From Neopararhizobium haloflavum (GTDB lineage: Bacteria; Pseudomonadota; Alphaproteobacteria; Rhizobiales; Rhizobiaceae): 64,000 bases of DNA. Positions within the stretch are counted from its first letter, which is position 1. Each line of letters starts with the position of its first letter. The stretch lies in NCBI RefSeq assembly GCF_002750855.1, contig NZ_NWUC01000008.1:159394-223393 (forward strand). The letters are read 5' to 3'. This document shows, piece by piece, positions 5,695-61,450 of the stretch. The position numbers and the translations under genes were made by a program. The notes under the pieces are model-generated. The model was not told the origin of the DNA and searched no databases. It saw nothing but the letters and a program-made list of their open reading frames with translations.

Positions 5695-5765
5695 TCTCGC
5701 GTGTCGTTCATGCCGTTGGGGAGATGGCGGGCGCGCGGAAGATAACCAAACGGGAGGACTGCACC

Positions 5766-6722: not shown

Positions 6723-6731
6723 TCGGGTCCG

Positions 6732-7232: not shown

Positions 7233-7236
7233 CGCC

Positions 7237-8553: not shown

Positions 8554-8568
8554 CGGTCACGCGCCGGA

Positions 8569-8613: not shown

Positions 8614-8632
8614 GTTTGAGGGATGGAGCAAG

Positions 8633-41921: not shown

Positions 41922-42024
41922 GTCTCGTTTCCTCCTGCTTTGTCGGCCCGCAGCTCGGGCGAGGCTACGATAGCGATCGCCGCCCTGGAAAAAATGGACG
42001 CAGCGCACAAAGAATTGTACTTCT

Positions 42025-42058: not shown

Positions 42059-42928
42059 ATGGCCCGGATCAAGATCGCCCGCAACGTGGTGGGGATGGAC
42101 GCGCAGGCCATCCGCCCGGCGCTGACCACGGGCGCGTTCACGCTCGACGGCGGCCGGCATCATGCGATCGTCCTTCTGTCCGGCGGCGGGTCACTGCGAT
42201 CGGACACGACAAGCGTCACGTTTGCCGCGCCCTGCGCCCTGTGGTTGCCGATCGGCGGCGCGGCCCGGCTGACATTGAATGCGGGCACGCGCGGTGCACG
42301 GATTGCGACGGACGAACTGGCGCTCGGCCAGGCGCTGCCGGCCGGTCCGCTCGGCGCGGAAATCAAGGAAACGCTGAGGCGCCCCATCCCTGGGCGAGCG
42401 GTTGCCGGACCTGCCGCGCAGGAGCTGGCGCAAGCGATCGGGGCGATCGGCCGTGAAAGCGCGACGCTCGCACGCGCCTTCGAAGCCGTGTGTCGCCACC
42501 ATCTGGCGGTGCTGCTGATCGGGCTGTGGCGCGCCGCGGCGCCGGCGACGCTTTCGGCCAAGGCGGCACCGTCGGCCATCGTCCGGCGCTTCCTCGACCT
42601 CGCGGAACTGCGACTGCGCGACCATTGGCGCGTCGAGGACTATGCCGGCGAACTTGGCATTTCGCGGGCGCGGCTGACGAGCGCCGTCAGGCGTGCCACG
42701 GGTCAGACCCCGCAAGGGCTGCTTCATGCCCGGCTCGTCCAGGAAGCCGAGACGCTGCTTTTCGGATCCAACCTGCAGACGGCCGAGATCGCCGAGGCGC
42801 TGGGCTTCAAGGATCCCGGCTATTTCAACCGATTCTTCAAGCGCCAGACAGGAATCGCCCCCGGCCGGCGCCGCCGCCTTGCGGGCGATCGGCCAGCCCG
42901 CGACCAGTCCTTCGCCGCCTGGCCCTAG
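42059..42928 (+). CDS. AraC family transcriptional regulator
   Basis: 289 residues from ATG 42059, with CGGAGGA upstream; the frame open from 41642 overlaps the aldehyde dehydrogenase and is not real. A cupin-like sensor domain (about 20-110) leads to a C-terminal AraC DNA-binding domain (about 180-280): VEDYAGELGISRARLTSAVRRATGQTP and TAEIAEALGFKDPGYFNRFFKRQTGIAP. It is divergent from the aldehyde dehydrogenase, which it probably activates in response to the aldehyde or its precursor. Confidence 0.92.
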   Translation: MARIKIARNVVGMDAQAIRPALTTGAFTLDGGRHHAIVLLSGGGSLRSDTTSVTFAAPCALWLPIGGAARLTLNAGTRGARIATDELALGQALPAGPLGAEIKETLRRPIPGRAVAGPAAQELAQAIGAIGRESATLARAFEAVCRHHLAVLLIGLWRAAAPATLSAKAAPSAIVRRFLDLAELRLRDHWRVEDYAGELGISRARLTSAVRRATGQTPQGLLHARLVQEAETLLFGSNLQTAEIAEALGFKDPGYFNRFFKRQTGIAPGRRRRLAGDRPARDQSFAAWP

Positions 42929-42932: not shown

Positions 42933-44063
42933 TCACGTCAAGCGCGCGATCAGGCCCGCCATCAGCCGGGCACGCTCGGGCAGGCTGTCGATCTCGATGT
43001 GCTCGGTGAGGGTGTGCAGCCCGCGACCGCGTACGCCGATGGAGTCGAGCGTCGGGATGCCGAGCGCGCCGGTGAAGTTGCCGTCGGAGCCGCCGCCGGC
43101 GCTTTCATGGGTGAGATCGAATCCGAGTTCGCGGCCGATGTCGCGTGCGACCTCGAAGAGCGCGAGCGTGCCGTCATCGGGCTCCCAGACCGGACGGGTG
43201 ACACCGCGCGTCACGGTGAAGGTGACCCCACCGCTCTCGCCCGAAAGCGCGAGCATCCGTGCCACGGCATCGTTCAGGTCGTCCTGGCGCTTAGCCATGC
43301 AAAGGGCCTCCGCCGTACACAGCGAAGAGACGCAGTTGACCCATTGCCCGCCATGGATCACACCGACCGAATAGGTGCAGTCCTCGCCGGTCATCGCCTC
43401 GATATCGAGAAGCCGCCGTGCCATCTCGGCAATCGCCGAGCGTCCATCCGCCAGCGCCCAGCTCGCGTGGCTCGGCCTGCCCTCGGTTTTCAGGTCGAAC
43501 CGGGCTATGGCATAGCGTCCGGTCACCGCGCCGCCGTCGGCCCGCGCCGGTTCGGGCACGAGCACGTAGCGGTTCTTTTGCGCCTCCGCTTCGATGAGGT
43601 CGCGCGTGCTCGGCGTGCCGACTTCCTCGTCCGGGGTCCAAAGGAACGTCACCGGCAAGGGCGTCTCGATGCCGTGGCGCGCCAGTTGGCGCATCGCGGC
43701 CAGGCTGGCATAGTTGCCGCCCTTCATGTCCATGATGCCGGGGCCGGTACAGGTGCCGTTCTCGACCCTGAACGGCAGCACGTCCAGCGTGCCGACCGGA
43801 TGCACCGTGTCGAGATGGCCGGAGAAAAGGATGCCCGGCTTGCCGTGGTCGCGATGGGGAAATTTCGCGCGCAACGAGCCGCCGAACCCCATGCGGCCGG
43901 GGATGCGCTCGACGCTGGCGCCGGCCACGGCAAAGTCATGGGCGGCCAGGTCCATCATCCGGTCGACGGCGGCCGCATCGAATGTCGGGCTTTCGCACTC
44001 CACCCACGGCTTCAGTTCCTTCAGCATCGCCGGGGTGTCGAATGACAGGGCCTCAAGCTGCAT
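42933..44063 (-). CDS. M20 family metallopeptidase (glutamate carboxypeptidase/CPG2 type)
   Basis: 376 residues. Metal and catalytic landmarks: GHLDTVHPVG (His, Asp), GPGIMDMKGGN (Asp), TPDEEVGTPSTR (Glu-Glu) and the dimerisation domain GRPSHASWALADGRSAI, ending GLHTLTEHIEID. It hydrolyses an amide or N-acyl-amino acid bond, like carboxypeptidase G2. It is the last gene of the eleven-gene run transcribed left from 55189, 18 bp after the GNAT gene. Confidence 0.88.
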   Translation of the reverse strand: MQLEALSFDTPAMLKELKPWVECESPTFDAAAVDRMMDLAAHDFAVAGASVERIPGRMGFGGSLRAKFPHRDHGKPGILFSGHLDTVHPVGTLDVLPFRVENGTCTGPGIMDMKGGNYASLAAMRQLARHGIETPLPVTFLWTPDEEVGTPSTRDLIEAEAQKNRYVLVPEPARADGGAVTGRYAIARFDLKTEGRPSHASWALADGRSAIAEMARRLLDIEAMTGEDCTYSVGVIHGGQWVNCVSSLCTAEALCMAKRQDDLNDAVARMLALSGESGGVTFTVTRGVTRPVWEPDDGTLALFEVARDIGRELGFDLTHESAGGGSDGNFTGALGIPTLDSIGVRGRGLHTLTEHIEIDSLPERARLMAGLIARLT

Positions 44064-44081
44064 CGGGCCGTTCCTTCCTTG

Positions 44082-44525
44082 TCAAAGCGCCTTTCGATAA
44101 ACGATGAAGGACGAGCGCGGCACCATGGTGTCGTAGAGCGAGCGGGCCGGGGCGTTGTACTCCTGGGTGTTCCAGTAGAGACGGAACGCGCCCTTCTCGC
44201 GCGCCGCCGCCTCCACCCCTTCGATCAGCGCCCTGGCTGCGCCGGCGCCGCGCGCATCGGGATCGACGAACAGGTCCTCCATGTAGCAGGACGGCTTGGT
44301 GTTCCAGGTCGAGGAATGGAAGAGGTAGTTGGCAAAGCCGATCACCGTGCCATCCACCTCGGCGACGAGCGCTCCGATATCGGGCGCGTCGTCGAGGATC
44401 TTGGCAAAGGTGGCGCCGGCAACGTCGTCGGGCACGCGCGCGCGATAGAAGCGATTGTAGGCCGCGAAGAGTTCGCGCCAGCGCGTCTCGTCCTTCGCTT
44501 CCGCGTTTCGGATGACAAGGCTCAT
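44082..44525 (-). CDS. GNAT N-acetyltransferase, SSAT-like
   Basis: 147 residues. The GNAT acetyl-CoA loop is FVDPDARGAGAARALIEGVE and the core strand FANYLFHSSTWNTKPSCYMEDLFV contains the conserved C-x-M-E-D-L-F pattern of spermidine/spermine or thialysine acetyltransferase relatives. It ends RSSFIVYRKAL. It overlaps the aminotransferase stop by 4 bp. An amine acetyltransferase beside an acetylpolyamine hydrolase suggests protection or interconversion of N-acetylated amines. Confidence 0.85.
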   Translation of the reverse strand: MSLVIRNAEAKDETRWRELFAAYNRFYRARVPDDVAGATFAKILDDAPDIGALVAEVDGTVIGFANYLFHSSTWNTKPSCYMEDLFVDPDARGAGAARALIEGVEAAAREKGAFRLYWNTQEYNAPARSLYDTMVPRSSFIVYRKAL

Positions 44526-45883
44526 GCCGCCACCTTCTCGCCGGCCACGGCGTCAAGCGCGGCGGCGGCGATGTCGAAGATCTCGTCGATCTGGCTTTCG
44601 GTGACGATCAGCGGCGGGCAGAAGGCCATGGCATCGCCCATGTTGCGGCTGATGAGCCCGCGCTGGTGCATCGCGGCGTTGACCGTGCCGCCGAGCGCGC
44701 CCACGGGCGCCTGCGGATCTGGGTTCTTCAGTTCAAGCGCCCCGATGAGGCCGATCCCGCGCGCTTCCACGGCAAGATCGTGGCTTTCCAGAGCCTTGAG
44801 CCGTGCCTGAAAATGCGGCGCCAGGGCGCGGGCATTGCCGACAAGGTCGCGCTCCTCGATGATCTTGAGATTTTCCAGCGCCACGGCAGCCGCGACCGGA
44901 TGGCCCGAGCCGGTATAGCCATGGCCGAAGACGCCGATCCTGTGCGATTCATCGGCGATCGGCGCGTAGACGCGCTCGTTCACCATCAGCGCCGAGATCG
45001 GCATGTAGGACGAGGAGAGCTGCTTCGACAGCGTCATCATGTCGGGCTCGAGATTATAGGTCTCGGTGCCGAACATGTTGCCGGTGCGTCCGAAGCCGCA
45101 AATGACCTCGTCGGCGACGAACAGGATGTCGTATTTCTTCAGGATCGGCTGGATGGCGTCCCAATAGCCGTCCGGGGGCACGATGACGCCGCCCGCGCCC
45201 ATCACCGGCTCGGCGAAGAAGGCGGCGATCGTGTCGGGGCCTTCCGAAAGGATCAACGCTTCGAGGTCCTCGGCGCAGCGTGCGGAAAATGCCCGCTCAT
45301 CCTCGCCCGCCTTGGCGAAGCCGCGATGATGCGGGCAGGTCGTGTGCAGCACCCCGTCCATCGGCAGGTCGAAGGAGCGGTGATTGTTCGGCAGCCCCGT
45401 CAGGCTGGCGCTCGCCAGCGTTACGCCGTGATAGCCCTTGATGCGCGAGATGATCTTCTTCTTTTCCGGCTTGCCGAGCGCGTTGGAGCGGTAGCGGATC
45501 ATCTTGATCGCGGTGTCGTTGGCTTCCGAGCCGGAGTTGGTGAAATAGACCTTCGACATGGGCAGGGGCGCCATGCCGATCAGCTTCTCGGCCAGTTCGA
45601 TGGAGGGTGTGTGCGATTTGTGGGTGAAGGTGTGATAGTAGGGCAGCTTCTCCATCTGCGCCGTCGCCGCCTCGACCAGCCGCTTCTCGCCGAAGCCGAC
45701 CGCGACGGACCAGAGCCCGGCCATGCCTTCGATGTAGCGCTTGCCGGAATTGTCGAAGACATGGATGCCTTCGCCGCGTTCGATCACGAGCGGGCCTTGC
45801 GCCTCGTGCTTGCGCTGGTCGGTGTAGGAATGCAGGTGATAGGCGATGTCGCGCGCTTCGATGGAATTCGGCTGGTGGGTCAT
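44522..45883 (-). CDS. Class III pyridoxal-phosphate aminotransferase, polyamine:pyruvate type
   Basis: 453 residues, near the 456 of Pseudomonas SpuC. PLP site: Asp258 (VADEV) and Lys287 (TLSKQLSSSYMPISA). The N-terminal HLHSYTDQRKHEAQGPLVIERGEGIHV and GMAGLWSVAVGFGEKRL match polyamine and omega-amino-acid:pyruvate transaminases. It would turn a terminal amine into an aldehyde while making alanine from pyruvate. It sits between an acetylpolyamine hydrolase-like gene and a GNAT gene with 4-bp overlaps both sides. Confidence 0.9.
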   Translation of the reverse strand: MTHQPNSIEARDIAYHLHSYTDQRKHEAQGPLVIERGEGIHVFDNSGKRYIEGMAGLWSVAVGFGEKRLVEAATAQMEKLPYYHTFTHKSHTPSIELAEKLIGMAPLPMSKVYFTNSGSEANDTAIKMIRYRSNALGKPEKKKIISRIKGYHGVTLASASLTGLPNNHRSFDLPMDGVLHTTCPHHRGFAKAGEDERAFSARCAEDLEALILSEGPDTIAAFFAEPVMGAGGVIVPPDGYWDAIQPILKKYDILFVADEVICGFGRTGNMFGTETYNLEPDMMTLSKQLSSSYMPISALMVNERVYAPIADESHRIGVFGHGYTGSGHPVAAAVALENLKIIEERDLVGNARALAPHFQARLKALESHDLAVEARGIGLIGALELKNPDPQAPVGALGGTVNAAMHQRGLISRNMGDAMAFCPPLIVTESQIDEIFDIAAAALDAVAGEKVAA

Positions 45884-46932
45884 GCGGCACCTCGATCGGG
45901 TTGGCCCTGCGCGAGCTCGTCGCGGCAGGATGTGAGGAAACGTTCGGCATTCTTGGCGAGCGAGGGGCCGAGATAGCCGCCCTCCTGCACCAGAGCGGTC
46001 GGCAGGCCGAGGCGGACGATCGCGCGTGCCATGGTCTCAAAGCCCCGCCCCGTCAGCTTCACTTCCGAAAGCGGATCGTCGGCCGCCATATCGAAGCCCA
46101 GCGAGACGACCAGCGCCCTGGCACCGAACCGTGTGATCGCCGAAAGCGCTTCGTCGAAGCGCGACAGGATCAGCGCTTCGTCGGCGCCCGACGGCAGCGT
46201 GAGGTTCAGCGTCGCGCCCTCGCCGGCGCCTTCCCCGCACTCGTCCTCGTAGCCGAGATAGAAGGTCGGATAGTCGGAAGGATCGACATGTATGGAACAC
46301 ATGAAGACATCGGCGCGATCGTAGAAGATGTCGAGCGAGCCGTTGCCGGTGTGGGTGTCGATATCGAGCAGCGCGACCTTGCCGAAGCGCTCGCTCAGCC
46401 GGTTGGCGGCGATCGCGGCGTTGTTGAAGACGCAGAAGCCGTTGGCACCGTCCTTCAGCGCGTGATGTCCGGGCGGGCGCGACAGAGCATAGACCATCCG
46501 CTCGCCGGCGCAGACCCGTTCGGCGGCCTCGAGCGCGGTCTGGGCCGACCAGTAGATCGCCTCGTACATGCCCTCCGACAGCGGTACCGACGTGTCGGTC
46601 ACATAGTAGCCGAGCTCACCGTAGATGGAGCGCGATGGCCGGCCGGCGCGGCGGCCGGGATGGTAGGTCGGGATCGGTTCGGCCTCGCCCGCCGCTTCCA
46701 CCCAGCGGCGGTGCGCGGTCTTGAAAAAGTCGACATAGGCCGGGTCGTGCACCGCCTTGATCGGGGCGTCGCCGAAATCGCGGGGACTGTCGATCGCAAA
46801 GCCATTGGCGATCAGCATGTCGCGAATGAGGATCGCACGTTCGGCCTGCTCGGGATGGGTGATATAGGCGCCGCGCCGAAAATAGCGCGCGGGCCGGTGG
46901 TTGAGCTGGCGTTCGTCGAAGATCGCGCGCAT
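45880..46932 (-). CDS. Acetylpolyamine amidohydrolase-like zinc enzyme (histone deacetylase family)
   Basis: 350 residues from ATG 46932; the frame open to 47757 crosses the next gene. Zinc and catalytic residues are in place: His156-His157 (SRPPGHHA), Asp192 and His194 (DIDTHTGNG), Asp281 (SLGFDMAADDPL) and Tyr320 (VQEGGY). Numbering is close to the Mycoplana acetylpolyamine amidohydrolase (341 residues). It removes acetyl groups from N-acetylputrescine or similar amines. It overlaps the aminotransferase gene by 4 bp, which is consistent with a deacetylate-then-transaminate order. Confidence 0.9.
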   Translation of the reverse strand: MRAIFDERQLNHRPARYFRRGAYITHPEQAERAILIRDMLIANGFAIDSPRDFGDAPIKAVHDPAYVDFFKTAHRRWVEAAGEAEPIPTYHPGRRAGRPSRSIYGELGYYVTDTSVPLSEGMYEAIYWSAQTALEAAERVCAGERMVYALSRPPGHHALKDGANGFCVFNNAAIAANRLSERFGKVALLDIDTHTGNGSLDIFYDRADVFMCSIHVDPSDYPTFYLGYEDECGEGAGEGATLNLTLPSGADEALILSRFDEALSAITRFGARALVVSLGFDMAADDPLSEVKLTGRGFETMARAIVRLGLPTALVQEGGYLGPSLAKNAERFLTSCRDELAQGQPDRGAA

Positions 46933-46940
46933 CGTTCCTC

Positions 46941-47912
46941 TCAGTATCCCAGCTTGCGATCGACCGCGGTTGCCGGACGGCGCCCGGCAACGACGTCCCG
47001 CGCCGCGCGGCTCACCTGTTCGGCGACCATCGCGCTGGAACAGTCGCTCGCCTGGTGCGGTGTGATCAGGATGCGCGGATCGGACCACCAAGGGTGGCCG
47101 CCCGGCAGTGGTTCGTCGCGGAAGACATCCAGCGAGGCGCCGGCCAGTTGCCCGCTTGCAAGCGCCTTGTCGAGATCGGCGTCGACGAGATGTTCGCCGC
47201 GCCCAAGCTGGATCAGCACCGACCCTTGCGGCATGATGGCGAAGAGATCGCTGTTGAGAATATCGCGCGTCTCCGACGTCAGCGGCAGGACGTTGACGAG
47301 GATGCGCGAAGCCGCCGCCACCTTCCTTGCGGCATCGGCTCCCGCTTCCAGCGTGACGCCGGGGATGTCCGGCGCGCTGCGCGCATTGCGCACCGAGGCC
47401 CTGACGGGAAAGCCCATCGCCGCGATGGCGCGGGCGATCGCCTGCCCCATCAGGCCGAAGCCGAGTACACCGACGGTGCACGCGCGCGGCGGGATGAACG
47501 ATCCGAGGTCGCGCCGGGCCCACGCGCCTTTCGCCTGGTGCTCTATATGGAAGCCGATGTTGCGGTGATGCCAGATGACGTGCCAGGCCGCGAAGCCCGC
47601 CATCATGTCGGCCTGGTGTTCGTCGCGCACCCGTGTGACAACGGCGTCTTCCGGCAGGCTCGGGCAGGTAACGATATTGTCGACCCCGGCGGCGATGGAC
47701 GCGGCGAGCGACAGGTTGGGATAGGCGTCGAAGGCGTCGTCGGCGGGATGCCAGCACAGCGCGAAGCGCACCGCCGCGGGGTCTTCCACGGCCTCCGGGC
47801 GGCGCAGGCGAATCTCCTCGCCGCGCGGCGCGAAGGCATCGGCGAACAGCTTTTCGAGATTGAGCGCAGTGCTGAGATAGACGCCCTCGATCGGTCCCTG
47901 GCTAGGCATCAT
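46941..47912 (-). CDS. Glyoxylate/hydroxypyruvate reductase A-like 2-hydroxyacid dehydrogenase
   Basis: 323 residues from ATG 47912, with GGAG 7 nt upstream; ATG 47909 is the alternative and ATG 47927 is unlikely. The NAD(P)-binding motif is GVLGFGLMGQAIARA. Catalytic Arg (QLGRGEHLVD), Glu (LDVFRDEPLP) and His (ITPHQASD) are present. GhrA-type reductases act on glyoxylate, hydroxypyruvate or related 2-oxoacids. It starts inside the 3' end of the deacylase gene (11-bp overlap), so it is part of the operon and would reduce a 2-oxoacid or semialdehyde-derived product. Confidence 0.88.
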   Translation of the reverse strand: MMPSQGPIEGVYLSTALNLEKLFADAFAPRGEEIRLRRPEAVEDPAAVRFALCWHPADDAFDAYPNLSLAASIAAGVDNIVTCPSLPEDAVVTRVRDEHQADMMAGFAAWHVIWHHRNIGFHIEHQAKGAWARRDLGSFIPPRACTVGVLGFGLMGQAIARAIAAMGFPVRASVRNARSAPDIPGVTLEAGADAARKVAAASRILVNVLPLTSETRDILNSDLFAIMPQGSVLIQLGRGEHLVDADLDKALASGQLAGASLDVFRDEPLPGGHPWWSDPRILITPHQASDCSSAMVAEQVSRAARDVVAGRRPATAVDRKLGY

Positions 47913-49209
47913 CCGCGCGCTCCGCATCGATCGGTTCCAGTCCGCACCACTCGGCGATAAACAGCGCGATCGCCCCTGTCACCCGCTTCATCGAGGCGAG
48001 GCTGACGCGCTCGTCGAAGCCGTGGATGTTTTCGGTGATCGGCCCGTAGACGAGGCACGGCATGCCGGCATAGATGACGAAGACGCGGGCGTCGAGATAG
48101 CCGGGCGTGACGATCGTCTCCAGTTCGGATCCGGCGGCGCGGCGATGCGTTTCGGCCAGCAGCGTTTCGGCGTCGCTGCCTTCTTCCAGGACGTAGCCCT
48201 TTGCCATGAAGCCGTTCCATTCCACGCGCGGCAGGCGGTTGCCGAGGAAGGGGTCGTCCGCGAGTTCGCGCGCCAGATGCGCCTCGATCTCGTCGGCCCG
48301 CTGACGCGGTTCGTCGCCGGGATAGATCGCGATCCGGCAGGACAGCTTGCACCAGGCGGCGACGGTGGACGCCCAGTCGCCGCCCTCGATCTTGCCGACA
48401 TTGAAATTGATCGGATGATCGAAATCCTCGAAATGGGGATGCTGGCTCTTCTCCGCATTCCATTTTTCCGTCAGCCGCTTGAGGCTTTCGATGACGCGGT
48501 AGCTGGCCTCGATGGCGTTGGCGCCGGTGCCCGCCTCGCGCACATGGACCGGGTGGCCGGAGACGTGCACGTTGAACCACAACACGCCGCAATTGGCGCG
48601 CACCAGCGCTTCGTCTTCCGGCTCGGGAATGATCGCAGCGTCCGCCTCGTAGCCCTCGACCAGGCAGGCGAGCGCGCCGTTGCCGGTGCATTCCTCCTCG
48701 ACGACCGACTGGACATGCACGCGCGCCGCCGGCTGATAGCCAAGGCGCTTCAGTGCATCGAGCGCAAAGACATTGGCGGCGATGCCCGCCTTCATGTCGC
48801 CGCCGCCGCGGCCATAGAGCCAGTCGCCCTGAACCTTCGGCTCGTAGGGCGGGCTCACTTCCCACATGTCATGCGGGCCCTCGGGCACCACGTCCATATG
48901 GCCGTTGAGAATGAGCGATCGCCCCTTCGCCTCGCGCGGCTCGTGGGTCGCCACGACGTTGACGGCGTCGGTGTAGTCCACCGTCACCGGCGAGAATCCA
49001 GGATGGTCCTTGATCCGATCGACATCGATCGCGAAGGTCTCGACCTTCATGCCGCGCTCGGCCAGCGCGCGATGCATGAAGTCCTGCGCCGGCTTTTCCT
49101 TGCCGCGCAGCGAAGGAAAACGGATCAGTTCCGAGGTGAACGCGATCTGCTCGGAAAAGCCGTCCTCCACGGATTGGAGGATGGCGCGGGATAGGTCCTG
49201 GTCGATCAT
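47902..49209 (-). CDS. M20 family N-acyl-amino-acid deacylase (ArgE/DapE family)
   Basis: 435 residues from ATG 49209. Metal sites: LNGHMDVVPEGPHD (His, Asp), YGRGGGDMKAGIAAN (Asp) and VVEEECTGNGAL (Glu-Glu). The lid domain includes VSGHPVHVREAGTGANAIEASY and a later GPITENIHGFDERV with the last metal His. It resembles acetylornithine deacetylase-type enzymes and would remove an acyl group from an amino acid or peptide. It is a second M20 protein in the operon, clearly different from the one at 42933. Confidence 0.88.
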   Translation of the reverse strand: MIDQDLSRAILQSVEDGFSEQIAFTSELIRFPSLRGKEKPAQDFMHRALAERGMKVETFAIDVDRIKDHPGFSPVTVDYTDAVNVVATHEPREAKGRSLILNGHMDVVPEGPHDMWEVSPPYEPKVQGDWLYGRGGGDMKAGIAANVFALDALKRLGYQPAARVHVQSVVEEECTGNGALACLVEGYEADAAIIPEPEDEALVRANCGVLWFNVHVSGHPVHVREAGTGANAIEASYRVIESLKRLTEKWNAEKSQHPHFEDFDHPINFNVGKIEGGDWASTVAAWCKLSCRIAIYPGDEPRQRADEIEAHLARELADDPFLGNRLPRVEWNGFMAKGYVLEEGSDAETLLAETHRRAAGSELETIVTPGYLDARVFVIYAGMPCLVYGPITENIHGFDERVSLASMKRVTGAIALFIAEWCGLEPIDAERADDA

Positions 49210-49253
49210 GTTGGGCGGTCCGTTGTTCAAGGAGGGGCGAAAGGGCAAGCGGC

Positions 49254-50876
49254 TCAGCCTGTCATCGCCGCCAGTTCCTTTTCCCGTCCGGGAATCGCTT
49301 CGATCAGGGAGCGCGTATAGGCGTCCCTGGGATCGTTGAAGATGTCGTAGGCCGGCCCCAGCTCGACGATCCGGCCCTTCTGCATCACCGCGATGCGGTC
49401 GCAGACCTGGGCGGCCACCCGCAGGTCGTGGGTGATGAAGACCAGCGCCAGATTGAGCCGCGCCTTGAGGTCGGCGAGCAGGTCGAGAACCTGCGCCTGG
49501 ATCGAGACGTCGAGCGCGGAGACCGCCTCGTCGGCGATGATGACTTCAGGCTCCAGCGCGAGCGCGCGGGCGATGCCGATGCGCTGGCGCTGGCCGCCGG
49601 AGAATTCGTGCGGATAGCGGTCGATCGCCGAAGCGTCGAGGCCGACCAGTTCCAGCAGCTCACTGGCGCGCTGGTAGGCTTCGTCCTTCGGCTTGCCGTG
49701 GGCCATCGGGCCTTCCGACAGGATGCGCCCGACGCGCGATCTGGGATTGAGCGAGGCATAGGGATCCTGGAAAATCATCTGGATGCGCTTGCGCTCGCGG
49801 CGTAGCTCCTCGCCCTTCATGTACGCCATGTCGACGCCGCCGAGCTTGACGACGCCGCTGTCGGGATCGAGCAGGCGCACCAGGCAGCGCCCGACGCTCG
49901 ACTTGCCCGAGCCGCTTTCGCCAACGATGCCCAGCGTCTCGCCGTCGGCAAGCACGAAGGAAACGTCGTTGACGGCATGGACGACGCGCCCCTTGGCGAA
50001 CATCGAACCGCCGGTGTGGTAGGTCTTGTTCAGCCCCTCGACGGCGAGGATCGGCGCTTTCTCGATCGCCGCGCGCCGGTCGGCGGAAAGCCGCGGGATC
50101 GCCGCGATGAGCTTCCTGGTGTAGTCGTGCTGGGGATGGTCGAGCACGTCGTCGACGCTGCCTTCCTCCACGATCTTGCCGAACTGCATCACCGCGACGC
50201 GATCGGCGATCTCTGCAACGACGCCGAAATCGTGGGTGATGAACATGACCGCCATGTCGCGCTCGCGCTGGAGATGGCGAATGAGGTCGAGGATCTGCGC
50301 CTGCGTCGTCACGTCGAGCGCGGTCGTCGGTTCGTCGGCGATGAGGATCTTCGGCTCAAGCGCCAGCGCCATGGCGATCATCACTCGTTGGCGCTGTCCA
50401 CCGGACAGCTGGAATGGATAGGCGCGCGCCGCCTTTTCAGGCTCGGGAATGCCGACCTCGGTCAGCAGTTGCACCGCCCGGTCCTTGCGCTCGCGTGGTG
50501 TCAGAAGTCCGTGCGCCTCATAGACCTCGGCGATCTGGTCGGCGACTTTCATCAGCGGGTTGAGCGCCGACATCGGCTCCTGGAAGATCATCGCCATCGC
50601 CCGCCCGCGCATGTCGCGGCGCTCCTTGTCGGAAAGCGTGAGGATGTCCTTGTCGCCAACGAGGATGCGTCCGCCGACCGGCCGCACCAGGTCGGGCAAA
50701 AGCCCCATCATGGCATTGGCCGACATCGACTTGCCGGAACCGGACTCCCCGACGATGCACAGGATCTCGCCCGGGACCAGATCGAAGCTGACGTCGTCGA
50801 CCGCGAGCGCACGATCGGCGCCTTCGGGAAGGGCGATCTTGAGATGTTCGATACGCGCTGCCGGCGTTGCCATCAT
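49254..50876 (-). CDS. Dipeptide/oligopeptide-type ABC transporter ATP-binding protein, two ATPase domains fused (DppD-DppF)
   Basis: 540 residues from ATG 50876 with AAGGGGA upstream. Two complete ATPase units: Walker [15 protein letters not shown] and [15 protein letters not shown]; signatures [13 protein letters not shown] and [13 protein letters not shown]; Walker [14 protein letters not shown] and [13 protein letters not shown]. The C-terminal Dpp/Opp extension is short. One protein thus replaces the usual two. It follows DppC by 7 bp and precedes the deacylase by 44 bp. Confidence 0.93.
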
Positions 50877-50883
50877 CGTCCCC

Positions 50884-51726
50884 TTACTTGCCCTTGCGCG
50901 CAAGGCGCGGATTGAGTGCATCGTTGAGGCCCTCGCCGATCAGGTTCAGCGCAAGCACGGTGAGGAGAATGGCGACGCCGGGGAAGAAGGACAGCCACCA
51001 CGCCTGCCGGATGACGGTGCGCGCGGCGCCGATCATGTAGCCCCAGGACATCAGGTTTGGATCACCAAGCCCGAGAAAGGACAGCGAGGATTCCAGAAGG
51101 ATCGCGGTCGCCACCATTAGGGAAGCGAGCACGATGATCGGCGACAGCGTGTTGGGCAGGATCTGACGCCAGATGATCGCCGCATGCGATTGCCCGGAAA
51201 GCGTTGCCGCCTCGACATATTCGCGCTGGCGCAACGACAGGAACTCGCCACGCACCAGGCGCGCGACCGGTGGCCACGACACGATCGCGATCGCCGCGAT
51301 GATCGAATAGATCGACGGCTCGAAGATCGCCACCAGGACGATCGCCAGCGCGAAGTTGGGGACCGTCTGGAACAATTCGGTGAAGCGCATCAACGCATCG
51401 TCGACGAAGCCGCCGAAATAGCCGGCGAGCGCGCCGATCGGAATGCCGATGAGGAGCGACACGACAGTGGAGACGAGGCCGACGAGAAGCGAGACCTGCG
51501 CGCCATAAGCGAGACCCGAGATGACGTTGCGCCCGATCGTGTCCGTGCCGAGCGGATATTCGCTCATTTCAAAAGGTGGCAGGAAGGGCCGCTGCACCAT
51601 GCGCCAGGGCGAGTCGGGAAAGAGGAGCGGCGCGATCGCGGCGACCACGACGACGAGCAGCAGGATGAAGAGGCCTATGACGGCGCCGCGGTTTCGGCTG
51701 AAACGTTTCCAGAAATCGCCCATCAT
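50884..51726 (-). CDS. Dpp/Opp-type ABC transporter permease (DppC family)
   Basis: 280 residues. The N-terminal segment AVIGLFILLLVVVVAAIAPLLFP and the PLGTDTIGRNVISGLAYGAQVSLLVGLVST region are classic DppC. The EAA loop reads YVEAATLSGQSHAAIIWRQILPNTLSPI. Its start overlaps the DppB stop by 4 bp. It should form the inner-membrane channel with DppB. Confidence 0.92.
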   Translation of the reverse strand: MMGDFWKRFSRNRGAVIGLFILLLVVVVAAIAPLLFPDSPWRMVQRPFLPPFEMSEYPLGTDTIGRNVISGLAYGAQVSLLVGLVSTVVSLLIGIPIGALAGYFGGFVDDALMRFTELFQTVPNFALAIVLVAIFEPSIYSIIAAIAIVSWPPVARLVRGEFLSLRQREYVEAATLSGQSHAAIIWRQILPNTLSPIIVLASLMVATAILLESSLSFLGLGDPNLMSWGYMIGAARTVIRQAWWLSFFPGVAILLTVLALNLIGEGLNDALNPRLARKGK

Positions 51727-52691
51727 GCCACCCGTATGCGCGGATCGACGACACGGTAGAGAATGTCGGTGATCAGGTTGAACAGCAGCACCATGGCGGC
51801 GGACACGAAGAAGACGCCAAGCAGCAGATTGTAGTCGCGCTGCTGCAACGCCTCGAACATCAGCCGGCCGATGCCGGGCCAGGCGAAGACGGTCTCCGTC
51901 AGGACCGCGCCGCCGACGAGCTGGCCCGCCTGAAGGCCAGCGAGCGTGACGACCGGCAGCATGGCGTTGCGGAAGATGTGGCGGCGCTGGATGATGCTGT
52001 TCTTCAGCCCCTTGGCGCGGGCGGTCTTGACGAAATCGAGCTGGCTGACTTCGAGCATCGAGGCGCGTGTCATGCGCATGTAGACCGCCATGAAGAACAG
52101 CCCGAGCGTGACGGCGGGCAGCACGAGGTGCCGGGCGACATCGAGCGCCCGGTCAAACCCGGTATAGCCCGACCCGACGGTCTCGAAGCCGAACGCCGGC
52201 AGCCAGTTGAGATGGACGGAAAAGACCAGAACGGCCATCAGCGCCACCCAGAAGAGCGGTGTCGCGTAGAAGAGCAGCGCTGCCGTCGAGATGAACGTGT
52301 CGGACCATTTGCCGACGCGGGCCGAGGCGAGGACGCCTGCGAGTGTGCCGAGCGTCAGGGCGATGACGAACGCCGTCATGGTGAGCAGAAGCGTCGCCGG
52401 CAGCCTGTCGAAGATGAGGTCCGCGACCGGCACCTGCTGGCGATAGGAAAAGCCGAGGTCGCCCTGCAGCACGCCGCCGAGATAGATGCCGAGCTGTGTG
52501 ATGAGCGGCTTGTCGAGGCCGAACCGCTCGCGCAGCTGGCGGATGAACTCCTCATCCGCGGCCCCGGCCTCGCCCGCCATGACGGCGGCCGGGTCGCCCG
52601 GTGCGGCGTGGATGAGCAGGAAGTTCAGCGTCAGGATCGCCAGAAGCAGGATGGCGGCCTTGATCAGACGCGAGATGATGAAGCGAACCAT
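51723..52691 (-). CDS. Dpp/Opp-type ABC transporter permease (DppB family)
   Basis: 322 residues with six membrane segments. Family marks are LIHAAPGDPAAVMAG near residue 28, the long extracytoplasmic region and the EAA loop FVKTARAKGLKNSIIQRRHIFRNAMLPV. It follows the binding-protein gene after a 93-bp gap with two strong hairpins, so it is expected to be expressed less than the binding protein. Confidence 0.92.
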   Translation of the reverse strand: MVRFIISRLIKAAILLLAILTLNFLLIHAAPGDPAAVMAGEAGAADEEFIRQLRERFGLDKPLITQLGIYLGGVLQGDLGFSYRQQVPVADLIFDRLPATLLLTMTAFVIALTLGTLAGVLASARVGKWSDTFISTAALLFYATPLFWVALMAVLVFSVHLNWLPAFGFETVGSGYTGFDRALDVARHLVLPAVTLGLFFMAVYMRMTRASMLEVSQLDFVKTARAKGLKNSIIQRRHIFRNAMLPVVTLAGLQAGQLVGGAVLTETVFAWPGIGRLMFEALQQRDYNLLLGVFFVSAAMVLLFNLITDILYRVVDPRIRVA

Positions 52692-52716
52692 GGGGCGATC
52701 GGAACCATCGGCTTTC

Positions 52717-52769
52717 GACCGGCGCGCCGGTCAAGGATGGGATGCGCGCGGCTTGTGAAAGCCGCGCGC
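52717..52769 (-). terminator. Two strong hairpins between binding-protein and permease genes
   Basis: GCGCGCGGCTT-N4-AAGCCGCGCGC (52744-52769, 11-bp perfect stem) and the perfect 16-bp palindrome GACCGGCGCGCCGGTC (52717-52732). Both lie just after the binding-protein stop on its own strand. They probably cut read-through or stabilise the 3' end to keep binding protein in excess over permease. Confidence 0.6.
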
Positions 52770-52784
52770 GACGATAGCGGCGGG

Positions 52785-54338
52785 CTATTCGGCCTCTTCG
52801 ATATAGGCGTTCTTGAACCCGTCATTGAGGCCGATCGCGCTTGTCACGAGATCCTTGATGTTGCAGCGGTGGATCGTCGGGAAGCCGAGTTCCAGCATCC
52901 ACGCGACAGGCACCTCGTCAACGAGGATCTTCTGAACCTCGGTGTAAAGCTCCTGACGCTCTTCCGGCGTCACCGCGACGGCCGCTTCGTCGAAGATCCG
53001 GTCGACTTCCTCGTTCTCGTAGCCTTCGACGTTGTTCCACTGCGAACCCTTGGCAATGTTCGTCGACACGTAGTTGCGCGAAACGCCGAGTGCCGGGTCG
53101 CCATACTGGTAGACGTAGGTGAAGGCCATGTCGTAGTCCCACTCGGCCAGCCGCTGGTTCCAGCCGGCGACGTCGGTGGAAACGATCTCGACGGGGATGC
53201 CGACCTCTTCGAGGTTCTGCTTCACCGCTTCGGCCCAGCGTTGCCAGGTTTCGCCATAGGGCAGCGGCAGCAGGCGCACCGGCTCGCCGTCATAGCCCAT
53301 CTCCTCGAGCAGCGCTTCGGCCTTGGCCGGATCGTAGGTGTATTGCGTCACATCGTCGGTGTAGAAGCGTGTCGAGGAGGCGACTGGCCCGGTCGCGACC
53401 TGGCCGAGGCCGGCCCAAAGGGCGTCACGGGCGAACTCCCGGTCCATCGCATACATCACCGCCTGGCGGAACCGCGCGTCGTCGAACGGCGCTTCGCGGT
53501 TGTTCAGCCACATCCAGGAATGCGGTGCGAAGTACTCCCAGCCCTTTTCCGTGATGCAGCTGTTTTCCAGATTGGCGATGCGCTCGACGTCGAAGTTCTC
53601 GACCGAGCCGCCGGGCAGGATATCGACGACGCCGTTTTCATAGGCGACGGCGCGCGCGGCGGCATCGGGGATCACATGCCAGTAGATCTCGTCGAGATAG
53701 GGCTTGCCCTCCTCGTAATAGTCCTCGTTCTTGGTCAGGAGGATGTGCGAGCCGCGCTCCCACTCCTCGAACTTGAACGGACCGGTGCCGATCGGCGTGT
53801 TGTTCATCTCGTTGTTGGCGAAATCGGTGCCTTCGTAGATGTGCTTCGGGATCATCGGCATGGTGCCGGCCTCGAAGATGCCGATGAACGGGCCGAATGG
53901 CTGCTTCAGCGTGAAGACGACCGTGTGATCGTCGGGCGCCTCGACCGATTCGACGTGCTCCAGCGACTGGCGCAGACGCGCGTGTGTTTCGCGCAGGAAG
54001 ACATCGACGGAGAACACGACGTCCTCAGAAGTGAAATCCTCGCCGTCATGCCATTTGACACCCTCGGCCAGATGGAACGTGTAGGTCAGCCCGTCCTCGG
54101 AGATTTCCCAGTCGGTGGCGAGCTGCGGCATCGGCTCCAGGTTCTCGTCGTAGCGCAGCAGGCTTTCATAGATGTTGCCGGCGACCATCTGGGTCGGTCC
54201 GTTCTGCACCAGGCCCATCATCAGGCTCGGCGGCTCGGGCTGGATGACCACATTGGCGCGCCCGCCCTCGACGGGCTGCGCGAAGGCTGAGGTCGACAGC
54301 ATCAGTGCTGCCGCAAGAAGTGCGAGTCTGGTCTTCAT
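52785..54338 (-). CDS. ABC transporter substrate-binding protein, family 5 (peptide/nickel/amine type)
   Basis: 517 residues from ATG 54338; longer frames upstream are not supported. Signal peptide to about residue 20 (LSTSAFAQP). Family 5 pattern: ESLLRYDENLEPMPQLATDWEISEDGLTYTFHLAEGVKWHDGEDFTSEDVVFSVD. It binds the ligand in the periplasm for the DppBC-DF importer. The family takes peptides, opines, nickel or amines, so the enzymes downstream are the better clue: an N-acylated amine or amino acid. Confidence 0.92.
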   Translation of the reverse strand: MKTRLALLAAALMLSTSAFAQPVEGGRANVVIQPEPPSLMMGLVQNGPTQMVAGNIYESLLRYDENLEPMPQLATDWEISEDGLTYTFHLAEGVKWHDGEDFTSEDVVFSVDVFLRETHARLRQSLEHVESVEAPDDHTVVFTLKQPFGPFIGIFEAGTMPMIPKHIYEGTDFANNEMNNTPIGTGPFKFEEWERGSHILLTKNEDYYEEGKPYLDEIYWHVIPDAAARAVAYENGVVDILPGGSVENFDVERIANLENSCITEKGWEYFAPHSWMWLNNREAPFDDARFRQAVMYAMDREFARDALWAGLGQVATGPVASSTRFYTDDVTQYTYDPAKAEALLEEMGYDGEPVRLLPLPYGETWQRWAEAVKQNLEEVGIPVEIVSTDVAGWNQRLAEWDYDMAFTYVYQYGDPALGVSRNYVSTNIAKGSQWNNVEGYENEEVDRIFDEAAVAVTPEERQELYTEVQKILVDEVPVAWMLELGFPTIHRCNIKDLVTSAIGLNDGFKNAYIEEAE

Positions 54339-54409
54339 GTCGTTGTGTTCCCCTGTTTCGGAGCGGACCGGGCATTCGCCTCTTTGTCCCGCGATGGCTT
54401 GCAATGAAG

Positions 54410-55189
54410 TCAGTTGACGAGGTCTGGATATTCCTTGATCGCCAGACGCTGGAAGGCGTCCCATTCCGGGTTGCGGCTCTCCGGGCTGTGGCCCGCGCCC
54501 CAGCTTTCGTATTGCCGCGCGGTCTTCTCGGCGAGCTGGCCGTTGACGGCGCGTCGTGTGCCGCCGGACGACATGATGGCGAGCTGGGCGCGGCAGGCGC
54601 GCTCCATGTTGAACATCAGCTGAAAGGCCTCGCCGACCGAGCGCCCGCAGGTGAGCAGGCCGTGGTTGCGCAGGATCATCACATTGCGTTCGCCAAGATC
54701 GGCGACCAGCCGCTCGCGTTCGGCCAGGTCGAGCGCGATGCCTTCGTAATCATGGAAGGCGACGCGGTTGTGGAACTGCAGCGACCATTGGTTGAGCGGC
54801 AGCAGCCCCTCCTCCATGGAGGATATGGCGACGCCTGCCACAGTGTGCGTATGAAGCACGCAATGCACTTCGGGCCGCGCCGCATGCACGGCGCTGTGGA
54901 TGGTGAACCCGGCCTTGTTGATGCCGGCGCCATAGGCATCCTTGAGGATGTTCCCGTCAAGATCGACGGCGACCAGATTGCTCGCCGTCACCTCGTCGAA
55001 GCGCAGGCCATACGGGTTGATCAGGAAGGCGTGTTCGCCCTCGCCGCTCGGCGCACGGCTGGAGATGTGCGTGAAGATGCTGTCGTCCATCTTGAAGTGG
55101 GCAACCAGTCGATAGGCGGCGGCGAGCTGGATGCGTTCGATCGGCTGGTCGAAGCCGGCCTCGTCCTCACGAAGGGATTGAACGGTCAT
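54410..55189 (-). CDS. Class II aldolase/adducin-like protein
   Basis: 259 residues from ATG 55189. Zinc His residues appear in VHCVLHTHTVAGVAIS and LRNHGLLTCGRSVGEAF, with FTHISSRAPSGEGEHAFLINPYGLRFDEVTASNLV upstream, the standard class II aldolase fold. This subfamily includes decarboxylases and proteins of unknown activity as well as fuculose-type aldolases. It is the first gene of the eleven-gene run and is divergent from gntR. Confidence 0.88.
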   Translation of the reverse strand: MTVQSLREDEAGFDQPIERIQLAAAYRLVAHFKMDDSIFTHISSRAPSGEGEHAFLINPYGLRFDEVTASNLVAVDLDGNILKDAYGAGINKAGFTIHSAVHAARPEVHCVLHTHTVAGVAISSMEEGLLPLNQWSLQFHNRVAFHDYEGIALDLAERERLVADLGERNVMILRNHGLLTCGRSVGEAFQLMFNMERACRAQLAIMSSGGTRRAVNGQLAEKTARQYESWGAGHSPESRNPEWDAFQRLAIKEYPDLVN

Positions 55190-55245: not shown

Positions 55246-55273
55246 AGGCAACCACAGCGTCGTATCGATGTCA

Positions 55274-55285
55274 ATTGTCGACAAT
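55274..55285. promoter_or_regulatory. Perfect 12-bp palindrome ATTGTCGACAAT, candidate GntR (FCD) operator
   Basis: It lies near the middle of the 217-bp divergent region between the aldolase operon and gntR. TTGTCNACAA/TTGTNNACAA-like palindromes are typical for FCD-type GntR regulators such as VanR and related proteins, so autoregulation and control of the operon fit. Confidence 0.65.
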
Positions 55286-55406: not shown

Positions 55407-56111
55407 ATGGACCAGATCAACCCGGATGGCGGCCGTGCGGCACGCACGTTCTCGGCCATCAGAACCACCGATCTGGTGACGCAGATATCGCGCCAGATGA
55501 CGGATGCGATCGTGACCGGCCGCTTGAAGCCCGGCGAGCGGGTGACCGAGCTTCAACTCTCCAAGGAATTCGGTACCAGCCGTGCGCCTGTGCGCGAAGC
55601 GGCGCGTCTTCTGGAAAACCAAGGACTGATCGTCTCCAGCCCGCGGCGCGGGTTCTTCGTGCGCAAGTTGACCGGCGACGAGATGCGCGACATCTACGAT
55701 CTGAGGATCTGTCTCGAACTCCATGCCGCCGGGATCGCGGTCGACCGCATGTCCGAGAGCGAGGTGACTGCGCTGGAAAAGCAGGTCGAGCGCCTTCACG
55801 AACTGGCCGATGCCGGATCGATCGAGGACCAGATTTTTGCAGATTTCACGTTCCATCGCATGCTGTGCGAGGCCAGCGGCAACAAGCGCCTGATGAAGGT
55901 CTATAACGAGCTTGCCGCCGAGATGAGCATCGGCATCACGCTGATCGGCAAGCTCTACGACGATCCGCATCGCATTGCCGAGACCCATGAGCCGATCGTT
56001 GCCGCAGCGCGCCGGCGTGACCGGGAAGACCTCTTCGAAGCGCTGCGCTATCACATCGGCGTCGCGCAGGATCACGTCGTCAGCCTTTTCCGCAATCTGG
56101 AGCGCGAGTGA
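55407..56111 (+). CDS. GntR family transcriptional regulator with FCD effector domain
   Basis: 234 residues from ATG 55407, which has GAGGA 7 nt upstream; ATG 55386 is in frame but lacks a good site. The N-terminal winged helix shows LKPGERVTELQLSKEFGTSRAPVREAARLLENQGLI, and the C-terminal all-helical FCD domain has the metal/ligand His and Asp residues in ADFTFHRMLCEASGN and ALRYHIGVAQDH. It is divergent from the eleven-gene operon and probably represses it until the substrate or an intermediate binds. Confidence 0.93.
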   Translation: MDQINPDGGRAARTFSAIRTTDLVTQISRQMTDAIVTGRLKPGERVTELQLSKEFGTSRAPVREAARLLENQGLIVSSPRRGFFVRKLTGDEMRDIYDLRICLELHAAGIAVDRMSESEVTALEKQVERLHELADAGSIEDQIFADFTFHRMLCEASGNKRLMKVYNELAAEMSIGITLIGKLYDDPHRIAETHEPIVAAARRRDREDLFEALRYHIGVAQDHVVSLFRNLERE

Positions 56112-56115: not shown

Positions 56116-56862
56116 TCAGTCCGGCCACGATTCGCCAACATACCGCTTCGCCGCCACGATCGCTTCGGTCAGCGGCGCGCCCATCGCAAGCGATGCGGCA
56201 ATGGCGCTGGAGAGCATGCAGCCCGTGCCACGCATCGTGCCGGACCGCCGTGGCGCGGTGAATGTCGCCGTGAGCCCTTGTCCCTCATAGAGCAGATCGC
56301 GTGCGTCCTGCGTTGCGCCATGTCCGCCCTTGGCGAGCAATGCGGGAAGGCCCGTGGCCGAAAGCACCATGCGTGCCTGTTCATCCGCCATCGCCTCGTC
56401 TTCCGCCTCGGCGCGCCCCGACAGTTCGGCGAGTTCATGGCGATTGGGCGTTGCGAGACGGCAGAGCGGAAACAGGCGCTGGCGCAGCGCTTCGACAGTT
56501 TCCGCGCTGGCAAGGCGCCGGCCGGATGAGGAAAGAAGCACCGGATCGACGACCACGGGGATCGTGCGCACGCTGGCCAGAACATCGGCGACCGCGGCAA
56601 TGCTTGCCGCATCGCGCAACAGCCCGATCTTGATCGCGCCGACGTCGTTGGCTTCAAGCGCCGCGCGCATCTGTGCGGCGATCAGCGGCGCATCGATGGT
56701 TTCGATCGAACCGGCCCGATCGTGGGTCTGTTCGCTCACCGCCGTCACCGCGACGCATGCCTTCACCGCGAAGGCGGCGAGCGTCTCGACGTCGCGCACG
56801 ATGCCCGCCCCGCCGGAGGAGTCCGAGCCGGCGACGACAAGCACCTGCGGCGCGCCGCTCAC
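56116..56862 (-). CDS. thiD: Hydroxymethylpyrimidine/phosphomethylpyrimidine kinase
   Basis: 248 residues from GTG 56862 (GTGA overlap with the thiE stop). The opening VLVVAGSDSSGGAGIVRDVETLAAFAV, DPVLLSSSGRRL and GTMRGTGCMLSSAIAASLAMG (anion hole with GTGC) mark the ribokinase-type ThiD. It phosphorylates HMP and HMP-phosphate for thiamine synthesis. It ends 4 bp from the convergent gntR stop and is the last gene of the riboswitch-controlled thi operon. Confidence 0.92.
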   Translation of the reverse strand: MSGAPQVLVVAGSDSSGGAGIVRDVETLAAFAVKACVAVTAVSEQTHDRAGSIETIDAPLIAAQMRAALEANDVGAIKIGLLRDAASIAAVADVLASVRTIPVVVDPVLLSSSGRRLASAETVEALRQRLFPLCRLATPNRHELAELSGRAEAEDEAMADEQARMVLSATGLPALLAKGGHGATQDARDLLYEGQGLTATFTAPRRSGTMRGTGCMLSSAIAASLAMGAPLTEAIVAAKRYVGESWPD

Positions 56863-57464
56863 CGCCACGGCGCCGTGGCCGCAAGCCATTCGCGCGTGCG
56901 CGATTCGGGATCGGCGTTGCGCGTGATGTCGGTGACGACGGCGGCGCTGTCGGCGCCATGATCGAAGACGCCGGCAAGACGTGCGGGGGTCAACCCGCCG
57001 ATCGCCACGAGCGGCAGTCCGCCGATTGCCGCCTTCCATTCGGTGATGCGCTCAACGCCCTGCGGCGCCCACTTCATCTTCTTCAGGATCGTCGGGTAGA
57101 CGGGACCGAGCGCGATGTAGTCGGGCTTTGCCTTGAGCGCGACCAGGCGCTCGGTCTCGTCATGCGTCGAGAGGCCGAGCCCAAGCCCGGCATCGGCGAT
57201 CGCCGCACGGTTCGCACCGACAAGATCTTCCTGTCCGAGATGAACGAAATCGCAGCCTTCCTCGATCGCCAGTCGCCAATGGTCGTTGACGATCAGTTGG
57301 CAGCCGCAGGCAGCGCATGTTTCGCGTGCCCGGCGAATGTGCGCGCGCAGGGCGTTATCCGGCGCGTTCTTGATGCGCAGTTGCACGAGTTTGACGCCAA
57401 GCGGTACGAGCCGGTCGATCCACTCGGCGCTGTCGACGATCAGATAGAACGGATCGAGCTTCAT
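56859..57464 (-). CDS. thiE: Thiamine phosphate synthase
   Basis: 201 residues from ATG 57464. ThiE motifs: [65 protein letters not shown] and [11 protein letters not shown]. It joins HMP-diphosphate and thiazole phosphate. It overlaps both neighbours by 4 bp, giving tight coupling. Confidence 0.92.
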
Positions 57465-58228: not shown

Positions 58229-58231
58229 CGT

Positions 58232-59393: not shown

Positions 59394-59396
59394 CGC

Positions 59397-61450
<2,054 letters not shown>

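Follow-up and report, generated by a model that had tools for sequence, protein, structure and literature searches.

A conserved, regulator-linked import-and-hydrolysis operon with two predicted, unrelated amidohydrolases in Neopararhizobium haloflavum

The window analysed here is a 64,000-nucleotide stretch of contig NZ_NWUC01000008.1 of Neopararhizobium haloflavum. It carries an operon of eleven co-directional genes (42933-55189, minus strand), which are predicted to import and degrade a small molecule. The gene families were assigned by Pfam and NCBIfam profile searches, and are listed in Table 1 together with the control region. The profiles bear out the eleven same-strand genes and the families named in the original prediction, which was made from the letters of the sequence. 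Counted along the operon from the aldolase-like gene with the chosen starts, the inter-gene spacings are 71, 93, -4, 7, 44, -26, 8, -4, -4 and 18 bases. When the start of the GhrA-like gene is moved to an ATG five codons on, the 26-base overlap shrinks to 11; with that later start the spacings fit the 4-11 bp overlaps and the longest gap of 93 that had been described. The view of the genes as a single import-and-degrade operon is also supported, and a divergent GntR gene with an operator and a promoter can now be added to it.

Table 1. Genes and control elements of the operon in the window (scores and cut-offs in bits).
Feature	Coordinates	Strand	Evidence
Class II aldolase/adducin-like protein	54410..55189	-	PF00596; PRK07044 subfamily 317 bits, cut-off 207
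Family 5 solute-binding protein (SBP)	52785..54338	-	SBP_bac_5, 312 bits
DppB-type permease	51723..52691	-	Opp2B/Opp4B/DppB model matches, every one under its cut-off
DppC-type permease	50884..51726	-	Opp4C/NikC/DppC model matches, every one under its cut-off
Fused DppD-DppF double ATPase (DppDF)	49254..50876	-	two ATPase stretches; GsiA, YejF best, under cut-offs
M20 ArgE/DapE-family deacylase (M20a)	47902..49209	-	PRK06837, 652 bits, cut-off 376
GhrA-like D-2-hydroxyacid dehydrogenase	46941..47927	-	2-Hacid_dh_C
HDAC-family zinc amidohydrolase	45880..46932	-	Hist_deacetyl; catalytic residues; tree; model pLDDT 88.9
Class III pyruvate-type omega-aminotransferase	44522..45883	-	PRK06105, 761 bits, cut-off 517
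GNAT acetyltransferase, peripheral	44082..44525	-	Acetyltransf_1
M20 hydrolase (M20b), peripheral	42933..44063	-	PRK07473, 661 bits, cut-off 386
GntR/FCD-type regulator, divergent from the operon	55407..56111	+	Pfam FCD 87 bits, GntR 58 bits
Palindromic operator (presumed GntR site) ATTGTCGACAAT	55274..55285	.	12 bp; core TTGTCGACAA at 55275-55284
Promoter	55246..55274	-	-35 TTGACA 55269-55274, 17-base spacer, -10 TTGCCT 55246-55251

The SBP_bac_5 protein, two permeases and ATPases within one operon identify a family 5 peptide ABC importer. An SBP, two permeases and a double ATPase are also common to the Dpp/Opp/Gsi importers of this family; however, the SBP and permeases of the window score below all cut-offs listed for the named Dpp/Opp/Gsi models. 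In the fused DppDF protein, half-size ATPase models including NikD, NikE, CntD and CntF exceed their cut-offs.

The HDAC-family enzyme has a complete set of the expected catalytic positions. Equivalents of His158, His159, Asp195, His197 and Asp284 of MrApaH are present in the window copy and in all 110 homologues; that of Tyr323 is found in 109, the remaining row being cut before that position. In the Mycoplana enzyme, Glu106 recognises the amine of the polyamine, as described in the available part of PMC11532494. The same position is Tyr in the window, and 109 of the 110 homologues lack the Glu; at the Glu117 position none has Glu (0/110), and Tyr168 is replaced by Phe in all (110/110). With a substrate whose far end is something other than an amine, the absence of Glu106 and Glu117 would be expected. 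The second His of the DxDxHHGNG motif is changed to Thr, Ala, Gly or Gln in the subfamily of the window, and is His in 23 of 25 more distant rows. A quick tree without bootstrap, made from 66 rows chosen from 115 and with some long branches uncertain, placed the window enzyme in a clade of 43 rows (SH-aLRT 100). The tested deacetylases 3q9b, 6phr and 9gkz formed a clade of their own (SH-aLRT 100), which was the sister of the window clade with an unstarred support of 87. The AlphaFold model of the monomer (pTM 0.91) showed a two-stranded hairpin at the N-terminal, with strands at 16-19 and 22-25; such a hairpin, capping the active site in the dimer, is described for polyamine deacetylases in the available part of PMC11532494. 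The cluster 4 ApaH enzymes, from Mycoplana ramosa, Marinobacter subterrani and Pseudomonas (PsApaH), share the fold class and the zinc and catalytic residues with the window enzyme, and a similar N-terminal hairpin is predicted for it by the monomer model; whereas the window enzyme lies outside their clade and differs from them at Glu106, Glu117, Tyr168 and the second His of the motif. Judged from the residues, the clade is predicted to retain catalysis and to have lost the polyamine reader.

These data also bear on the catabolism of an acetylated diamine or polyamine, in which N-acetylputrescine or N-acetylcadaverine would be imported, deacetylated by the HDAC-family enzyme and transaminated in the SpuC style. 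The closest solved relatives of the enzyme carry the name acetylpolyamine amidohydrolase; the sister position of the tested deacetylases and the hairpin point in the same direction, as does an entry named polyamine:pyruvate transaminase among the relatives of the aminotransferase (9j4z, 414 bits versus 593 for PjTA). However, such a pathway seems unlikely, since the clade is separate and the positions of Glu106, Glu117 and Tyr168 have changed. The importer is of the peptide type, not of the PotABCD type known for polyamines, and the two M20 enzymes and the 2-oxo-acid enzymes discussed below would be left unexplained. The proposed order of N-acyl hydrolysis followed by transamination is supported by the HDAC and aminotransferase genes being neighbours in several contexts; the polyamine specificity that went with it is not, because of the separate clade and the missing Glu106.

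The aminotransferase shares 66% sequence identity with 5ghf, which we take to be from Ochrobactrum anthropi, and 60% with PjTA over 443 residues. Its PRK06105 score and the high identity to a tested member assign it to the omega-aminotransferase family, and an omega-amino acid is the substrate of the closest relative that has been characterised. PjTA converts 6-aminohexanoate with pyruvate in caprolactam degradation by Pseudomonas jessenii, according to the available part of PMC6061476. Relatives with 64-75% identity adjoin hydantoinase/oxoprolinase pairs in Ensifer and Sulfitobacter (L110, L112). Another relative, in Phaeobacter, adjoins lhgO and an aldehyde dehydrogenase gene, and one in Rhizobium adjoins a gene annotated as GhrA. 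The caprolactam cluster of P. jessenii carries lhgO and a caprolactamase pair (PMC6061476, available part). The resemblance of these neighbourhoods to the caprolactam cluster supports, by analogy, an omega-amino acid or amine as the probable substrate of the aminotransferase. The aminotransferase subfamily is what the window operon shares with the caprolactam pathway as given there; whereas the caprolactamase is missing from the operon, which has an importer and amidohydrolases instead.

Three further operon enzymes were compared at their functional positions. In the M20a protein, H105, D107, D139, E172-E174 and E197 were found in 54 of 54 rows, and these are the probable metal ligands. The GhrA-like enzyme has Arg243, Glu272 and His291 in 43 of 43 rows, and an Arg/Glu/His triad forms the functional residues of GhrA-type enzymes; its score of 149 bits misses the cut-off of 403 for the NCBIfam GhrA equivalog. 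In the aldolase-like protein, His110, His112 and His173 are invariant (47/47 rows); the corresponding histidines of class II aldolases are zinc ligands. The catalytic residue of FucA is Glu73, and at the FucA Glu position, matched by eye, all 47 rows have Gly91. Adducin was the nearest among the named solved proteins. Given this Gly and the adducin relationship, carbon-carbon (aldol) cleavage by this protein is doubtful and is not claimed here.

An alignment of HDAC orthologues was scanned against the genome contigs, which gave the best 80 of 313 loci, and plasmid records added more. The 80 loci counted below (L005-L008, L011-L085 and L114) are those with an HDAC at least 53% identical to that of the window. 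With at least 8 kb upstream and at least 4 kb downstream, 62 of the 80 loci were regarded as adequately flanked. The per-gene identity thresholds were of our own choosing, and the 80 loci are not independent, as they include duplicates or close kin (for example L027/L028 and L008/L042). Eight genes, namely those for the aldolase-like protein, SBP, DppB, DppC, DppDF, M20a, the GhrA-like enzyme and the HDAC-family enzyme, occur together on the same strand at 22 of the 80 loci. A complete transporter lies within 10 kb of the HDAC gene at 50 of the 62 adequately flanked loci, and a GntR homologue is near it at 22 of the 62, always on the opposite strand (22/22). The peripheral genes are less constant. 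The aminotransferase gene is within 10 kb at 23 of the 80 loci; M20b is near the HDAC gene at six of the 80, on the other strand in all six; and tblastn found no GNAT match at any of the 80 loci, with a single match elsewhere (L115). The stretch from the aldolase-like gene to the HDAC gene is thus a conserved core, and the aminotransferase, GNAT and second M20 genes are optional. The recurrence of the gene order in other genera led us to reject a chance run of genes; the counts for the three peripheral genes led us to reject the inheritance of all eleven genes as one unit. Twelve adequately flanked loci lack the transporter; in seven of these the aminotransferase gene lies divergent beside the HDAC gene (six at 127-128 bases, one at 898), and these seven look like close relatives of one lineage.

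The distribution of the module is patchy. In the family of the window, 53 of 101 genomes gave an HDAC homologue with an E-value of 1e-60 or lower, and four of the 101, its own genome counted, had one at least 58% identical. The sole other genome of the genus gave no HDAC match at E 1e-60 or better. Across the class, 21 of 385 genomes, again with its own counted, had an SBP match at E 1e-140 or better. On a comamonad plasmid, the module has a beta-proteobacterial counterpart that contains two HDAC-family genes (L105, 13204-28847), which suggests spread beyond the Alphaproteobacteria. The operon is real and widely shared among bacteria; very probably, it imports a peptide-like small molecule, cuts amide bonds and removes an amino group.

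The control region lies in the 217 bases between the regulator gene and the first gene of the operon. The open frame of the regulator begins at 55338, and the protein scores 111 bits against NCBIfam phnR_burk, below the cut-off of 271.5. On the operon strand, the last base of the palindrome is the first base of the TTGACA -35 box, so that one base is shared. Relatives in which a divergent regulator gene precedes the gene for the aldolase-like protein or the SBP were scanned for the pattern TTGTNNACAA. It was present in or beside the gap in 25 of 30 such regions, some of which are near-duplicates (for example L027/L028), and every match was TTGTCGACAA; base shuffles of the 30 regions gave a mean of 0.085 and a maximum of 1 of 30 with the core. 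TTGACA adjoins the core in 21 of 27 aligned sites, and TTGCCT follows at a spacing of 17 in 14 of the 27; these sites take in the window, and L022 is counted twice. The core was missing from five of the 30 regions (L020, L068, L080, L115 and L117). Nor was it found before the operon in 22 relatives of the thiamine diphosphate (ThDP) enzyme type, the LysR type and some of the GntR type, where two chance-like matches lay elsewhere. These indicate that the operator belongs to one regulator lineage.

The core pattern has a single copy in the window. In the whole genome TTGTCGACAA has 12 copies, versus two for the reversed control, and the full 12-mer occurs at only two sites, the window and C20:584562; from the reading of that locus, the second site is apparently within a transporter permease gene. 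The palindrome is therefore a putative dedicated operator of the operon. A wider regulon was considered and dropped, since only two of the 12 genomic sites are full 12-mers and the other one is inside the probable permease gene. Codon-position scores of the best open frame were at least 0.2 at 10 of the 11 other TTGTCGACAA sites, the exception being L138 with only 0.08. For the operator site of the window itself the value is 0.22, in a frame of 93 residues, and coding sites can therefore not be told from intergenic ones by this score alone.

Two enzyme positions around the conserved importer are exchanged among the relatives. At the 50 loci with the transporter, the GhrA-like gene alone is present in 29, a ThDP enzyme gene alone in 18, neither in three and both in none. 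In five further cases (L101, L102, L109, L122 and L125), which include Azospirillum and Skermanella, a gene of the ketopantoate-reductase family follows DppDF. In Chelatococcus, a ThDP gene and an annotated GABA transaminase gene adjoin the importer. GhrA-like, ketopantoate-reductase-like and ThDP enzymes all work on 2-oxo or 2-hydroxy acids, and this suggests that the pathway runs through such an intermediate; the gene exchange is observed, whereas the chemistry is what we infer from it. The second amidohydrolase slot holds an M20 enzyme of either the ArgE/DapE type or the AmaB type; in Thioclava, an amidase is present and the stretch covered contains no HDAC. Ten proteins of unknown function, encoded next to the importer at SBP loci of lower similarity, had no enzyme in common and gave no hint of the substrate.

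The ketopantoate-reductase-family genes raise the possibility of a pantothenate-like amide, composed of a 2-hydroxy acid and an omega-amino acid. Cleavage of the amide would release the omega-amino acid for transamination and the 2-hydroxy acid for oxidation and degradation. A 2-dehydropantoate-reductase-family protein in the GhrA-like slot at the five loci would suit this substrate, as would the presence of the aldolase-like and ThDP enzymes. However, the family name is broad and the score of the L101 protein (225 bits) is barely above the cut-off of 223; the two different amidohydrolases and the kinase pair of the relatives would be left unexplained, and a search of the open-access literature on pantothenate catabolism gave no matching operon. 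We regard this substrate as scarcely likely. The operon might also be suspected of scavenging short acylated peptides of mixed kinds in a general way, without any one dedicated pathway, given the interchangeable hydrolases (ArgE/DapE, AmaB-type M20, HDAC and amidase) around one transporter type; yet the putative dedicated operator and the stable order of the eight genes make this very improbable.

The removal of the amino group shows a similar exchange. A phospholyase-like class III gene alone is found at 19 of the 50 transporter loci, the aminotransferase gene alone at 12, both at one and neither at 18. On a Paracoccus plasmid (L007, 15008-20530), a LysR gene, a phospholyase-like class III gene and genes for an APH-family phosphotransferase, an SDR and the aminotransferase lie downstream of the core, so that the two routes of amine removal are combined in a single cluster. 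This pattern could be accounted for by a compound with a vicinal amino alcohol, of which N-acyl hydroxylysine and acylated compounds of the ethanolamine type are examples, if the relatives use the APH-family kinase and the phospholyase and the aminotransferase is the alternative in the window. The APH kinase with a PRK06148-like class III gene occurs in Rhodobacterales, Paracoccus, Thioclava, Chelatococcus and the comamonad. However, the kinase pair is missing from the window and from the mapped operons of Nitratireductor, Roseibium and Mesorhizobium; the class III protein misses the PRK06148 cut-off (482 bits versus 1128, the model being that of a longer fused protein); and the substrates of the kinase are taken from its family membership. 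An amino alcohol is accordingly an improbable substrate.

The likeliest substrate class appears to be an N-acylated omega-amino or diamino acid, such as a relative of N-acyl-lysine or N-acyl-ornithine, rather than an acetylated polyamine; we put this forward tentatively, as falling a little short of an even chance. In the proposed mechanism, the divergent GntR regulator would keep the operon off by binding at ATTGTCGACAAT against the -35 box, and would release the DNA once the substrate or an intermediate appears. The Dpp/Opp-type ABC importer, a class assigned from the profiles, would bring in a small N-acylated, peptide-like compound. The unrelated ArgE/DapE-type M20 and HDAC-family amidohydrolases might then take off two acyl groups, one probably near the carboxylate and the other on the terminal amine. 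The aminotransferase would turn the freed omega-amine into an aldehyde, probably with pyruvate as the acceptor as with PjTA; a 2-oxo or 2-hydroxy acid arising en route could be handled by the GhrA-like enzyme. From the sequences, the operon is a conserved, regulator-linked system of import and hydrolysis, with two predicted, unrelated amidohydrolases and an optional omega-aminotransferase.

Several observations weigh against the substrate class favoured here. PsApaH carries His at position 106 and is nevertheless a polyamine deacetylase (available part of PMC11532494), which keeps the residue argument from being decisive; moreover, Glu does occur at this position in one homologue out of the 110 (L104). 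HDAC-family enzymes from outside the window clade accompany the same importer type in Azospirillum, Skermanella, Chelatococcus, Haematobacter, Qingshengfaniella and the comamonad (L101, L102, L104, L105, L107, L108 and L109), and so the importer and the HDAC subfamily are not strictly tied. In the quick tree, the ThDP form within the window clade makes up one subclade of 12 rows, which means that the mutual exclusion of the GhrA-like and ThDP genes mostly reflects a single switch. The phospholyase-like class III gene at 20 of the 62 adequately flanked loci and the kinase gene at 18 of the 62 point to a vicinal amino alcohol, which would fit only if the substrate is hydroxylated. The aminotransferase, being within 10 kb at so few of the 80 loci, may not be an essential step, and the aldolase-like gene is without a clear role.

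A broader proposal is that of a modular pathway whose substrate would be an omega-amino or diamino acid with an N-acyl group and possibly a hydroxyl group; its basis would be a new HDAC subfamily, acting as a deacylase on omega-acylamino acids. The 2-oxo-acid step (GhrA-like, ketopantoate-reductase-like or ThDP enzyme) and the amine step (transaminase, or kinase with phospholyase) would be swapped, while the importer is kept throughout and the operator in one group. We consider it possible, if on the doubtful side. No described pathway with this gene set was found in the open-access literature, which agrees with the original prediction. Bacterial members of the HDAC family like the one described here receive the default annotation of histone deacetylase family protein or acetylpolyamine hydrolase, and a clade predicted to lack the polyamine reader, inside a regulated uptake operon, offers a tractable case for finding a new substrate in the family. 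The exchangeable slots narrow the substrate chemistry, and the putative operator would allow an inducer test by a simple reporter. If the substrate is abundant, the operon might serve as a marker of its use by marine and soil Alphaproteobacteria.

The same genome has a second HDAC module (L135; G000:C35:143000-160500, locus 1626-10295), about 6 kb before the first base of the window. Its genes encode a divergent LysR, a polar amino acid ABC importer, a class III aminotransferase, a beta-keto acid cleavage enzyme, a GNAT and an HDAC-family enzyme. This KCE/BKACE-type module (C35, about 144.6-153.3 kb) resembles the window operon in having an HDAC-family enzyme, a class III aminotransferase, an ABC importer and a GNAT; whereas its transporter is of the polar amino acid type, it has the beta-keto acid cleavage enzyme, and its HDAC is 41-43% identical. 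In Shinella (L009), the order from the importer to the HDAC gene is the same and the LysR gene is at the other end; the Shinella cleavage enzyme is named 3,5-dioxohexanoate:acetyl-CoA acetone transferase by NCBIfam, above the cut-off. The classical L-beta-lysine pathway runs via N6-acetyl-beta-lysine, and the gene set of the second module fits this pathway, the NCBIfam name of the Shinella enzyme notwithstanding.

Past the end of the operon are an aldehyde dehydrogenase gene (40470-42008, minus strand) and an AraC-type regulator gene (42059-42928, plus strand). The dehydrogenase could oxidise the product of the transaminase; it was rejected as a member of the conserved module, as no dehydrogenase match at the 80 HDAC loci exceeds 35% identity. 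The AraC protein had no match in the mapped relatives of the tblastn panel, and the loci were not searched further for it. On the other side, a thiamine biosynthesis run (56116-61355, minus strand) ends beside the GntR gene. It includes phosphomethylpyrimidine kinase, thiamine phosphate synthase, ThiG, ThiC and a DAO-family oxidoreductase, which may be ThiO. Elsewhere in the window, a ThDP-requiring enzyme is encoded at 23115-24878 on the plus strand (PRK08327, 672 bits, cut-off 456), and its subfamily differs from that of the ThDP enzyme in the related operons. A FhuB-type ferric hydroxamate permease is encoded at 27895-29934 on the minus strand (PRK10577, 667 bits, cut-off 554).

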